Shown here: one piece after another, positions 48,283 to 52,475 of the stretch | Numbering within the stretch: position 1 is the stretch's first letter | Layout of the letters: the number at the start of each line of letters is the position of its first letter | Source of the DNA: Chloroflexota bacterium | GTDB lineage: Bacteria; Chloroflexota; Dehalococcoidia; Tepidiformales; Tepidiformaceae | Direction: 5' to 3' | Assembly (NCBI GenBank): GCA_016234445.1 | Contig: JACRBT010000017.1 | Coordinates: 1-64,000 of the forward strand | DNA length: 64,000 bases | Notes under the pieces: model-generated | What the model was told of the DNA's origin: nothing | What the model saw: the letters and a program-made list of their open reading frames with translations, nothing else | The model's database searches: none | Position numbers and translations under genes: made by a program

Positions 48283-49767
48283 ATGACTTCCGTTGTCGAC
48301 CGCCCGAAGACCCGCGCCTACCAGCAGTTCATCGACGGCCGCTGGGCTGACGCCGCCTCCGGTGAGACGTTCAGCCGGACCAGCCCGTTCGACGGCAGCG
48401 TCGTCGCGACGTATCCCAACAGCGGCATCGAAGACGCCCAGCGCGCGATCCAGGTTGCCCGCCGCGTCTTCGACGATGGGACCTGGGCGACCTCGCCCGC
48501 GGTCGACCGGGCCGCCATCCTCCGCAAGGCGTCCGACCTTCTGGTCGCGAACGCAGACGAACTGGCGGATTCGCTCACGGCCGAAGTGGGGAAGCCCCGG
48601 GCAATGGCGATGGGCGAAGTGATGGCGACGGCGGATGTCTACCAGCTCTTCGCCGCGAAGGCCCTGGACCTGAAGGGCGAGTCCATGACCCAGCAGATCC
48701 CGGACGCGGTGGGGCTGGTCATCCACGAACCGGTAGGGGTGGTCGGCATCATCACGCCGTGGAACTTCCCGCTGCTGCTGCTTTCGTGGAAGGTGGGGCC
48801 GGCCATCGCCGCGGGCTGCACGATGGTGGCGAAGCCGTCTCACTACACCCCGGGCAGCACCCTCATCCTCGCGCGCATCCTCGCCGAAGCGGGGCTCCCG
48901 GACGGCGTCTTCAACGTAGTCACGAGCGAAACCGACAACGGCGCGCTCGTCGGCCAGCACCTCGCCTCGTCGGAACTGGTCGACAAGATCGCCTTCACGG
49001 GGTCGACGGCGAGCGGGAAGGCGGTGATGCGGGCGGCGGCGAACAACGTCAAGAAGATCTCGCTCGAACTTGGCGGGAAGTCGCCCAACATCGTCTTCCC
49101 GGACGCGCAGATCGACGCGGCGGTGGCGGGCGCCTTCTTCGGCATCTACCTGAACAGCGGCCAGGTCTGCCAGGCCGGCAGCCGCCTGCTCGTCAGCAAC
49201 CGGGTGAAGGACGAATTCGTCACCAAGCTCGCGGGGATGAGTTCGATGCTGAAGATGGGCAACCCGATGGACCCGGAGACGACGATGGGGCCGGTGATCA
49301 ACGAGTCGCAGCTGAAGAAGATCGAAGGGTACCTGGACCGCGGCAAGCAGGAGGCGAAGCTCCTCACCGGCGGCAGCCGCGCGACCGAGGGCGACCTGGC
49401 GAAGGGCCTCTTCGTCCAGCCCACGATCTTCGACAACGTCACCAACACGACGACCATCGCCCGCGAGGAGATCTTCGGGCCGGTGCTCTCGGTGCTTTCC
49501 TTCGACGACGTGGACGACGTCATCCGGACGGCGAACGACACCATGTACGGCCTCGCGGCGGCGGTCTGGACGAAGGACATCAACGTTGCCCTGAAGGTGG
49601 CGAAGGGCCTCCGGGCGGGGACGGTCTGGGTGAACGCGTACCACGGGACGGGGCTCTACAACATGCCCTACGGCGGCTACAAGCAGAGCGGTCTCGGGCG
49701 CGAACTCGGCTCCTCGGGGCTGGAGGAGTTCATGGAGACGAAGGCGATCCAGATCAAGCTGGGGTAG
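48283..49767 (+). CDS. Aldehyde dehydrogenase
   Basis: A 494-residue NAD(P)-dependent enzyme. TPWNFPLLLLSWKVGPAI, FTGSTASGKAVM, the general-base Glu in LELGGKSPN (about 262) and the catalytic Cys in NSGQVCQAGSR (about 295) are all present, as is EEIFGPVLSV. The closest look is to betaine/2-hydroxymuconic aldehyde dehydrogenases; the substrate is unknown. ATG 48283 has AAGGAG upstream. TATGCT near 48214 may be the -10 box. Confidence 0.93.
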   Translation: MTSVVDRPKTRAYQQFIDGRWADAASGETFSRTSPFDGSVVATYPNSGIEDAQRAIQVARRVFDDGTWATSPAVDRAAILRKASDLLVANADELADSLTAEVGKPRAMAMGEVMATADVYQLFAAKALDLKGESMTQQIPDAVGLVIHEPVGVVGIITPWNFPLLLLSWKVGPAIAAGCTMVAKPSHYTPGSTLILARILAEAGLPDGVFNVVTSETDNGALVGQHLASSELVDKIAFTGSTASGKAVMRAAANNVKKISLELGGKSPNIVFPDAQIDAAVAGAFFGIYLNSGQVCQAGSRLLVSNRVKDEFVTKLAGMSSMLKMGNPMDPETTMGPVINESQLKKIEGYLDRGKQEAKLLTGGSRATEGDLAKGLFVQPTIFDNVTNTTTIAREEIFGPVLSVLSFDDVDDVIRTANDTMYGLAAAVWTKDINVALKVAKGLRAGTVWVNAYHGTGLYNMPYGGYKQSGLGRELGSSGLEEFMETKAIQIKLG

Positions 49768-49845
49768 CTGTTAGCTATTAGCTGTTAGCTGTTAGCTGTT
49801 AGTGGTCGGCTGTCGGCTGTCGGCTGTCGGCTGTCGGCTGTCGGT
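49768..49845 (+). repeat. Heptanucleotide microsatellites
   Basis: TTAGCTG/TTAGCTA units (about five) run directly into TCGGCTG units (about five). Two different 7-bp repeats lie side by side behind the aldehyde dehydrogenase. Repeats of this kind may vary in number by slippage. Confidence 0.85.
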
Positions 49846-49882: not shown

Positions 49883-50101
49883 TTAGCGGAGCTGCCAGAA
49901 GGGGCCGGTGAGGCCGAGTTCGGCGAACATGGCTTCTGTCTCGTCGACTGTCTTCCGGCGCCAGTCGCGGGGGCGCCGGTCAGGACCGTAGACCGCTTTC
50001 GCCAGTCCCCAGCATTGCTCCAGCGAGAGGACGGCACCGGGTTCCATGCGCCAGTCGTCCAGCCACTTTGCGAGATGTTCTTCCGACCGGAAGATGAGCA
50101 T
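49883..50101 (-). CDS. C-terminal part of MerB-like protein, downstream of in-frame TGA
   Basis: A 72-codon stretch starting MLIFRSEEHLAKWLDDW and going on to GAVLSLEQCWGLAKAV. It matches the C-terminal third of MerB (HVHFFAS..AEDW..SVHEAFGLG in the R831b enzyme, from memory) and is in the same frame as the upstream part, separated only by TGA, AAG and ACC. It could be translated separately from ATG 50101, but no ribosome site precedes that ATG. It is more likely the end of one 228-residue protein made by reading TGA as selenocysteine, or the tail of a gene broken by a recent nonsense mutation. Confidence 0.65.
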   Translation of the reverse strand: MLIFRSEEHLAKWLDDWRMEPGAVLSLEQCWGLAKAVYGPDRRPRDWRRKTVDETEAMFAELGLTGPFWQLR

Positions 50102-50110
50102 GGTCTTTCA
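50079..50110 (-). other. Candidate selenocysteine UGA with bSECIS stem-loop
   Basis: On the minus strand TGA (50110-50108) is followed after 13 bases by TCTTCC-GGTC-GGAAGA, a 6-bp stem with a GGUC tetraloop (50094-50079). The loop begins 19 bases after the TGA. Bacterial SECIS elements lie immediately 3' of the UGA with a small apical loop holding a G (GGUC in E. coli fdhF). The TGA aligns with MerB Cys159. Confidence 0.55.
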
Positions 50111-50569
50111 GTTGAAGACGATGTCGCGCCACCACTGGGCCGCGGGGATCGCGAAGTGGACGATGCCCTGCGCCGGCTGGAGCGCCCCGTCGCGGACCGC
50201 CAGCGGCATCGCCGTGCCACAATCGCCACAGGACGCGCGGATATTGGCGTCCCGGCCCAGCATCGCGGGGATGCCCATCACATCCCAGATGCAGTTCCCG
50301 TAGTACTCCTGCCCGTCGACTTCGGCGACAAAGGCGGTGGGCACGGCGGAGAACGGGTTCGCCATCAGGACTTCGCCGCTGTCCCGCTGAAGGACGAGCA
50401 TGCGCGCATCAGCGAGGCGACGGAATGACGCTTCGACCTCGGCCGGGGTGGCCGACACGGCGGCGGCGGTCTCGGCGATGGAGGGTGGGAGGCCGAGCTT
50501 GATGGCCTGGTCATAGACGTAACGGCGCACGTCCTGGTCGAGGGTCGTCGTCGCCGGGTCGGTACTCAC
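50108..50569 (-). CDS. MerB-like organomercurial lyase family protein, N-terminal part up to TGA
   Basis: The 153 codons before an in-frame TGA. An N-terminal winged-helix-like region (AETAAAVSATPAEVEASFRRL) is followed by the MerB core: YYGNCIWDVMGIPAMLGRDA, with C93 and D96 spaced like catalytic Cys96 and Asp99, and ASCGDCG. Family members cut carbon-mercury bonds or are of unknown role. The third catalytic residue, Cys159 of MerB, would fall at the TGA itself. GTG 50569 follows GGAGGATCG. The preserved core argues against an old pseudogene. No mer operon is nearby. Confidence 0.78.
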   Translation of the reverse strand: MSTDPATTTLDQDVRRYVYDQAIKLGLPPSIAETAAAVSATPAEVEASFRRLADARMLVLQRDSGEVLMANPFSAVPTAFVAEVDGQEYYGNCIWDVMGIPAMLGRDANIRASCGDCGTAMPLAVRDGALQPAQGIVHFAIPAAQWWRDIVFN

Positions 50570-50669
50570 CTACGATCCTCCGCTGCTGCCGTGGCGGCGC
50601 TCGGGCGCCGTCGCGTGACCGGCGTCATTGTGGCGCCGTGGGCGTGGGGGTAGCATCGCGCGGGACGTT

Positions 50670-52475
50670 ATGGCTGCGCCGGGCGGATGTCAATCTTCAA
50701 GGTGGTCGAGGGGCCGCTGCTGGCTGGCCGGCGCCGCGGTGTTGCTTGCGGCGGGGCTGTTCGCGCTGGCTGTGCCCCCCGGTCCTTTCCCCGCGCGTGC
50801 CGCCTGTGGCGATGGGGCGGAAGACGTCCAGGATCTCTGGTCGATCACCGAGCCAGCAGGCGCCGGCTTCTTCGCGCAGGGCTCCGCGCCGCTTCGCGTC
50901 ACCCTGAGCATCCGGGGCGGCGTGGTCGAATTCGGCACCGGTGAGATCACGGCCGTGCTCGACTGGGGCGACGGTACCGGGGCGACAACGGTCGCGACTC
51001 AACCGTGCGGTGACGGGGAGACGTCGTTCTGGCCGCAGCAGGACCTGACGCACATCTACGCCACGGCCGGTTCCTACTCCCCGGTGATGACGATCTCACT
51101 GAACGTCCCGGTGCCCGACGTGCCGTCCAGCTTTGCGTTCACACCCTTCGGCGTCCAGGTCGACGCGGCTCAGGCGCCAACGGCGGTGCCCACGCCCACA
51201 GAGGCGGTCGCCGCGACGCCGACGCCGCCACCGGCGCAGGGGACGGCCGCGCCATCGCCGACGCCGGGGGCAGGGTCGACTTCGGTGACGTCAGCCACGG
51301 CCGCGGCTTCACCGTCGTCTTCGGTCCAGCCGCCGACAGCCGCGGCTCCCGGCCGCGGGGAGACCGCGACTCCCTCGCCGAGGCCCGGGACGACTCCCTC
51401 CGCCACCGCCACCGCCACCGCTTCTGCCGCTGCAGCCGCAGCGACGGGCACGGAGGAGCCCCCGAACCCGGCGGTCCCGGAGCTGGCCGCGGCGCTCCCG
51501 GAGGTTGGGGACGTCTCCACCGAGCCGGACGTGGTCGCCACGAACATCGTCATCGCCGGGTTCACCGTCTGGGTGCTCTTCACCTCGGTCCTCCTCAACC
51601 AGGTGCTCCAGGACAACCGGGAGGAGGTGGAGCGCCGGACGTCGTGGCTGCGCCCGCGGGAGTGGCGGCTGACGCGATGGGCGTTCCGCGGTGGCGGGCG
51701 CCGGAACCGCCTGTCCGAAGCCGCGCAGATGGTCGGGGTGCTCGCGATCACCGGCGCCATCTACACGCTCGCCGAACCGGGCCTGGGCCTGAACCGCCAG
51801 ACGGCCGTCCTCTTCGTCAGCGTCATCGCGGGGGTGGGCATCGTCTCCTACGCGGTTTCCGGCATCGAAGCGCGCTCCATTCGCCGGATCGCCGGGGCGC
51901 CGGCAGCCGTCCGACCGTACGCCGCGACCATCGCCGTGGCCGCCGTTTCGTTGCTGGTGACGAAGCTCTTCGACCTCCGCCCCGGGATCGTCTACGGCTT
52001 CGTCGCGTCGACCACGCTGCTCGCGGCGGCGAGCCCGGACCGGAGCCAGGCCGGGAGGATCGCGGCCCGGCCGGTGCTTGCGGGCCTGGTCATCGCGGTC
52101 GGCGCCTGGCTGGCGGTGGGGCCGCTGCGGTCGGCGGCAGCGGGGTCGGACTCGTGGCTGCTGGCGGTCGCGGAGTCGACGGCGGTCATCGTTTGCGTCG
52201 GCGGGATCGAGGGTGCGGTCTTCGCGATGATCCCGGTGGCCGAAACCGACGGCGGCAAGCTCTACCGCTGGAACCGGGCCGCCTGGCTGGCGATCACCCT
52301 GCCGTCGGCGTTCCTGATGTGGCACGTGCTGCTCGGCCGGGAACAGGCCTACTTCTCCGGGCTCCGCCAGGCGCAGTCGATGACGGTGGTCGTGGTGTTC
52401 GCCGTCTACAGCCTCCTGACCATCGCCGCCTGGGCCTACTTCCACTTCCGCGACGAGCCCGCCGCCGCCGCGTGA
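50670..52475 (+). CDS. Membrane protein with exported PKD-like domain
   Basis: A 601-residue protein. A signal segment (about 16-42) precedes a PKD-like beta domain (VLDWGDGTGATT, HIYATAGSYSPVM; about 45-165), a long Pro/Thr/Ala linker (about 170-285) and a C-terminal region with about eight membrane helices starting at IVIAGFTVWVLFTSVLL and continuing through ITGAIYTLAEPGLG and TLLAAASPDRSQAG. The membrane part has an FGLL-like repeat seen in Chloroflexota multidomain proteins. Function unknown. ATG 50670 is the most plausible start; its ribosome site is weak. Confidence 0.72.
   Translation: MAAPGGCQSSRWSRGRCWLAGAAVLLAAGLFALAVPPGPFPARAACGDGAEDVQDLWSITEPAGAGFFAQGSAPLRVTLSIRGGVVEFGTGEITAVLDWGDGTGATTVATQPCGDGETSFWPQQDLTHIYATAGSYSPVMTISLNVPVPDVPSSFAFTPFGVQVDAAQAPTAVPTPTEAVAATPTPPPAQGTAAPSPTPGAGSTSVTSATAAASPSSSVQPPTAAAPGRGETATPSPRPGTTPSATATATASAAAAAATGTEEPPNPAVPELAAALPEVGDVSTEPDVVATNIVIAGFTVWVLFTSVLLNQVLQDNREEVERRTSWLRPREWRLTRWAFRGGGRRNRLSEAAQMVGVLAITGAIYTLAEPGLGLNRQTAVLFVSVIAGVGIVSYAVSGIEARSIRRIAGAPAAVRPYAATIAVAAVSLLVTKLFDLRPGIVYGFVASTTLLAAASPDRSQAGRIAARPVLAGLVIAVGAWLAVGPLRSAAAGSDSWLLAVAESTAVIVCVGGIEGAVFAMIPVAETDGGKLYRWNRAAWLAITLPSAFLMWHVLLGREQAYFSGLRQAQSMTVVVVFAVYSLLTIAAWAYFHFRDEPAAAA

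Follow-up and report, generated by a model that had tools for sequence, protein, structure and literature searches.

In the window, by which we mean the whole 64,000-nucleotide stretch of Chloroflexota DNA that was analysed, a gene resembling the organomercurial lyase gene merB is interrupted by an in-frame TGA. The locus raises two questions: whether this TGA ends translation or encodes a selenocysteine (Sec), and what a protein read through it would do. The results indicated, with a high degree of confidence, that the gene encodes a Sec-containing member of the MerB superfamily, with read-through at residue 154, a MerB-like active site and, by analogy, an action on organometals. The insertion of Sec at UGA 154, taken by itself, appears close to certain.

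The predicted read-through product and its active site

A single minus-strand frame extends from a GTG start at 50569 to a TAA stop at 49885-49883, and the TGA at 50110-50108 is its sole interruption. The reading that had been made from the sequence alone described two minus-strand stretches sharing one frame and split only by this TGA, and the 228-residue read-through frame bears it out. The features of the gene are as follows.

49883-50569, minus strand: predicted MerB-like selenoprotein gene, 228 aa (frame; Pfam MerB 102.9 bits; AlphaFold pLDDT 96.4, pTM 0.92)
50577-50581, minus strand: GGAGG, likely ribosome binding site, 7 nt upstream of the GTG (sequence)
50360-50569, minus strand: N-terminal helical region, winged-helix-like as in MerB (predicted secondary structure; residues 5-70 match LexA-type winged helices)
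50291-50293, minus strand: Cys93, in the column of MerB Cys96; Cys in the window gene, TGA in the two-Sec relatives (alignment)
50282-50284, minus strand: Asp96, in the column of MerB Asp99 (alignment)
50219-50230, minus strand: CxxC pair Cys114/Cys117, occupied by Cys in most members of the window family (alignment)
50108-50110, minus strand: in-frame TGA, residue 154, proposed Sec, in the column of MerB Cys159 (alignments; stop column in relatives)
50079-50094, minus strand: bSECIS-type hairpin UCUUCC-GGUC-GGAAGA, with 19 nt from UGA to loop (fold, codon constraint, control scan)
49883-49957, minus strand: C-terminal extension, about residues 205-228 (...GLTGPFWQLR), past the part alignable with MerB2 (the model aligns with 5c17 over residues 6-200)

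The C-terminal extension is kept in both the Sec and the Cys members of the family, and W225 is invariant. Immediately downstream, in the interval that separates the gene from a convergent aldehyde dehydrogenase gene, two arrays of 7-bp tandem repeats lie side by side (plus-strand units TAGCTGT and GTCGGCT, window 49765-49844). A 615-aa ORF that lacks a Pfam match (window 50628-52475, plus strand) is divergent from the MerB-like gene.

The read-through product matched the Pfam MerB family (PF03243) with 102.9 bits (cut-off 27) over residues 73-195, a match that runs across the TGA and agrees with the MerB core and MerB C terminus that had been recognised on its two sides. In phmmer alignments to MerB2 (5c17) and MerB (3f2g), residue 154 falls opposite the second of the catalytic cysteines (Cys159 in R831b numbering), as had been proposed. 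The MerB active-site columns Cys96, Asp99 and Cys159 are thus occupied by Cys93, Asp96 and the predicted Sec154. In addition, AlphaFold predicted the read-through protein as one unit (pLDDT 96.4, pTM 0.92), and the best structural match of this model was the mercury-bound MerB2 structure 5c17 (Z 18.8, 3.3 A over 189 residues). Both the Pfam gathering score and the predicted MerB fold place the protein in the MerB superfamily. The scores against the NCBIfam MerB models were below their cut-offs (54.4 vs 193 bits for NF009710 and 45.8 vs 200 bits for NF033555).

By analogy with MerB, we lean towards the window protein being an organomercurial or organometal lyase; the fold and active site suggest organomercurial lyase activity. 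The main alternative accepts the selenoprotein and assigns it another role, as a lyase of other organometals or metalloids or as a protein that binds or senses metals. The gene stands alone: in the 80 loci collected below there was neither a conserved neighbour gene nor a mer neighbourhood, and no MerA above the cut-off was found in the window genome, where the best match was the dihydrolipoamide dehydrogenase of a pyruvate dehydrogenase operon. The window gene has neither an equivalog-level MerB score nor the company of a mer operon or MerA, and this lack of mer neighbours and of MerA counts against a plain mercury-resistance role. The scores far under the MerB and SaoL cut-offs, the extra C-terminal segment and the conserved CxxC also fit a different role. 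However, the MerB fold is the best match of the model and the residues corresponding to Cys96, Asp99 and Cys/Sec159 are kept, so that we regard this alternative as possible but somewhat doubtful. The earlier suggestion that Sec stands in for the mercury-binding thiolate follows from homology; an activity on mercury is putative. Among plasmid-borne sequences only distant MerB proteins were found, none covering 80% of the query.

The stop column, the hairpin and the decoding machinery

To collect relatives, we searched a set holding one genome for each species, using a peptide pattern located downstream of the TGA site, the site itself being outside the pattern. The scan kept 80 loci, 79 of which were readable at the site, and all 79 carry a stop codon in the Sec column (74 TGA, 5 TAG, no Cys). 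The five TAG genes (L084, L091, L096, L100 and L108) all belong to the set's Geodermatophilaceae isolates. With the Sec covariance model, the tRNA-Sec anticodon was CUA in 5/5 of the TAG genomes and UCA in 7/7 of the tested TGA genomes and in the window genome. Apart from Sec, there is little that would readily explain this joint switch of codon and anticodon. The CUA tRNA-Sec of Geodermatophilaceae is labelled Pyl by ARAGORN.

Of 119 aligned homologues, 102 carry a stop in this column and the remaining 17/17 have Cys, the stop column spanning Actinomycetota, Acidobacteriota, Gemmatimonadota, Chloroflexota and others. An in-frame UGA opposite a Cys in all 17 non-Sec homologues is the pattern by which bacterial selenoproteins are recognised, and the sequence-only reading had proposed looking for precisely such Cys replacements and for a TGA shared by other relatives, of which there are many. 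The residue before Sec is Asn in the window protein and mostly Thr, Ala or Asn in the relatives. The C-terminal extension is also present in the closest Cys forms, which lack the hairpin-encoding FRSEEH peptide; in three of the four genomes that hold them (G281, G243 and G226), the best match to the Sec model reached at most 47.6 bits, the match in G281 being a tRNA-Ser. A quick tree, from which the columns of the site and the hairpin had been left out, requires three changes of the Sec/Cys trait at position 159, with moderate support.

Two other readings of the stop were weighed against these data. According to the first, the locus comprises two genes, or translation restarts by coupling at an ATG (50101) three codons past the TGA, and codon +3 is indeed ATG in 85/89 genes. 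However, it is ATC in the other 4/89, and further Chloroflexota members have Ile there, which makes a restart impossible in those members; the stop would also split the MerB domain and the catalytic triad of a fold predicted as one unit, and the Cys homologues are single frames. We therefore consider two genes or a restart very unlikely. According to the second, the TGA that interrupts the frame is a recent nonsense mutation, leaving a pseudogene with a truncated product of 153 residues. This reading has next to no probability and is refuted by the conserved stop column, present in 102/119 aligned homologues across phyla, and by the co-switch, in which TAG replaces TGA exactly where tRNA-Sec has CUA; moreover, the part downstream of the stop is conserved as protein, its codons being under coding constraint (identity by codon position 0.55/0.58/0.40).

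The Sec reading is further supported by a hairpin. As had been noted from the letters, it begins 13 nt past the TGA: TCTTCCGGTCGGAAGA at 50094-50079 occurs once in the window and in 0/100 dinucleotide-preserving shuffles. The published criteria for a bacterial SECIS are a loop of 3-9 nt, a stem of 4-16 bp, a G in the first two loop positions, a distance of 16-37 nt from the UGA and an MFE <= -7.5 (PMC13188914). The window hairpin has a GGUC loop of 4 nt, a stem of 6 bp and a distance of 19 nt, and its energy is -9.2 kcal/mol for 49 nt, the -7.5 limit being reached only with the surrounding fold since the apical hairpin alone gives -6.5 kcal/mol; the proposed fit of stem, distance and loop to a bSECIS thus holds. 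Compared with shuffles, the 49-nt MFE is ordinary for its composition (z -0.12), and the folding energy by itself proves nothing. A per-gene synonymous shuffle is also weak for the window gene alone (0.15) because the peptide FRSEE itself favours the hairpin.

The comparison among genes is more telling. First, L159, F160, R161 and S162 in the hairpin are encoded by CTC, TTC, CGG and TCG, and across 93 genes their codon entropies are 0.09, 0.00, 0.24 and 0.00 bits, whereas other conserved residues that have a choice of four or six codons reach 1.5-2.1 bits. Second, loci found by protein search alone, with no pattern, have the same hairpin codons except for two with Asp in place of Ser. Third, 90/92 genes have a bSECIS-type hairpin at the site, whereas within these genes such a hairpin occurs at 8.2% of 15,701 control positions. 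One separate clade has U-A rather than C-G as the closing pair of the stem, with Arg replaced by Trp and Ser TCG by TCA, and the loop is still GGUC at 19 nt. The comparative evidence (a stop column in 79/79, a hairpin in 90/92 vs 8.2%) exceeds chance.

The sequence-only reading had also called for a search of the genome for selA, selB, selC and selD. All were present in the window genome (3.54 Mb, 97% complete): a tRNA-Sec with anticodon UCA scoring 66.9 bits, above the Rfam cut-off, together with SelB (317 bits), SelA (541 bits) and SelD (361 bits). The SelD gene (L018, 1501-2436, minus strand) has an in-frame TGA of its own, within the customary GGUxxK motif (here GGUASK), from which it is very likely that the organism decodes UGA as Sec in other genes too. 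Among 28 further genomes with a TGA-containing MerB-like gene, tRNA-Sec(UCA) was confirmed in 27, and the 28th has selA. The co-occurrence with selA (13/14 vs 123/196, Fisher p 0.011) is no more than a mild indication, as Sec users abound in the class. Thus, the findings that had been named in advance as speaking against Sec, namely a genome lacking tRNA-Sec or SelB, or relatives with the same split that lack a Cys at the site, were looked for and did not refute it. Computation supports the coding of Sec, the Sec/Cys column, the MerB fold and the catalytic triad. The reading of TGA as ordinary Trp, Gly or Cys through a suppressor or an alternative code, such as exist in some bacteria, is scarcely credible, as the homologues have Cys rather than Trp or Gly in the column, the TAG switch follows the tRNA-Sec anticodon, and a Sec-SelD with GGUASK is present.

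Proposed mechanism and two-Sec relatives

We propose that ribosomes would read UGA 154 as Sec with the downstream hairpin, SelB and tRNA-Sec(UCA), yielding one 228-residue product with a putative active site of Cys93, Asp96 and Sec154. By analogy with MerB, an organometal ion would be held between the Cys93 thiolate and the Sec154 selenolate, and Asp96 would shuttle the proton that frees the hydrocarbon; a proton relay through the acid residue has been computed for MerB (PMC4525700). From this we infer cleavage of a carbon-mercury or other carbon-metal bond, as well as any gain from selenium. Selenolates are more acidic than thiolates and bind mercury more tightly, so that Sec may aid the capture of trace organomercury or speed protonolysis, possibly at the cost of slower product release.

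Some relatives have a second stop. In a clade of Chloroflexota and Thermodesulfobacteriota with Glu in place of Asp99, 14/17 members also have TGA at Cys96 (WYGQUGFE; loci L117, L119-L123, L026-L028, L031, L035, L037, L041 and L148), and this first TGA has its own hairpin in 11/12 checked, mostly with a loop of the GGUC type or CGUGC at a distance of 17 nt. In a third clade (L181-L184), TGA occupies both Cys96 and Cys159 while Asp99 is kept; its loops are GGUC and CGUGC, the GGUC loop being retained with the compensatory change of the closing pair from C-G to U-A, its peptide is UxxxVFFWSEEH, and selA is present in 4/4 genomes. In these two-TGA relatives, both metal-binding residues would be Sec. 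Genome G017 holds one one-Sec (L025) and one two-Sec (L041) MerB-like gene, and G329 holds three two-TGA copies. A more canonical MerB-like gene (L032, 1387-2016, plus strand) has TGA in the Cys159 column (VGCTUPLINFF), possibly an independent change from Cys to Sec. These observations moderately favour a broad radiation of selenoenzymes within the MerB superfamily, with Sec at the position of the mercury ligand Cys159 and, in two clades or more, at that of Cys96 as well. These would be organometal lyases with an S,Se or Se,Se metal site, in which UGA encodes Sec in most phyla and UAG does so in Geodermatophilaceae.

Relation to known systems

Most known selenoproteins are redox enzymes. In the window family, Sec would occupy the metal-binding, proton-relaying residue of an apparent carbon-metal lyase. 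Its members come from several phyla of bacteria living in soil and sediment, and the conservation of the same Cys-to-Sec replacement across them marks it as a genuine and widely distributed selenoprotein family. Because gene callers terminate the frame at this codon, the family is easily overlooked or labelled as a truncated alkylmercury lyase, and it would escape the merB counts on which surveys of methylmercury breakdown rely. Because members occur in described isolates (Geodermatophilus, Blastococcus and Modestobacter), Sec insertion, UAG decoding and lyase activity are open to direct test.

The idea of a MerB-type selenoprotein is not new, since 'organic mercuric lyase MerB2' and 'alkylmercury lyase MerB-like protein' appear in lists of predicted selenoproteins (PMC7435645, PMC9312934); these entries are given without sequence, site or distribution, and they may refer to the window family or to another. 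Forms with two Sec are absent from these lists, and a 2026 catalogue of selenoproteins has no MerB with two Sec. UAG-encoded Sec with a CUA tRNA-Sec, as in the MerB-like genes of Geodermatophilaceae, was already known in that family for other proteins, and the passage concerned, which cites an earlier report, names formate dehydrogenase, UGSC-motif and AhpC proteins and does not mention MerB (PMC5330540). The novelty of the window family is not certain, as the literature search did not reach the primary work on SaoL or the 2025 work on selenoprotein neighbourhoods.

SaoL (NF040728), a MerB-like organometallic lyase, is listed as a predicted selenoprotein with one Sec in a CU motif (PMC13188914) and is, like the window protein, a MerB superfamily member. 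However, the window protein scored 42.4 bits against the SaoL model, whose cut-off is 140, and has Asn-Sec instead of the Cys directly before Sec; in the class, 0/245 genomes had a SaoL above the cut-off. With 42 vs 140 bits for SaoL and 54 vs 193 bits for MerB, the window family falls outside both curated families by sequence score, and no curated NCBI family model covers it. With MerB (PF03243; R831b MerB 1s6l/3f0o; MerB2 5c17), the window protein shares the fold and the three catalytic columns; unlike MerB, its gene lies outside any mer operon, and it has a predicted Sec at Cys159, a conserved CxxC (114/117) and about 25 extra C-terminal residues.
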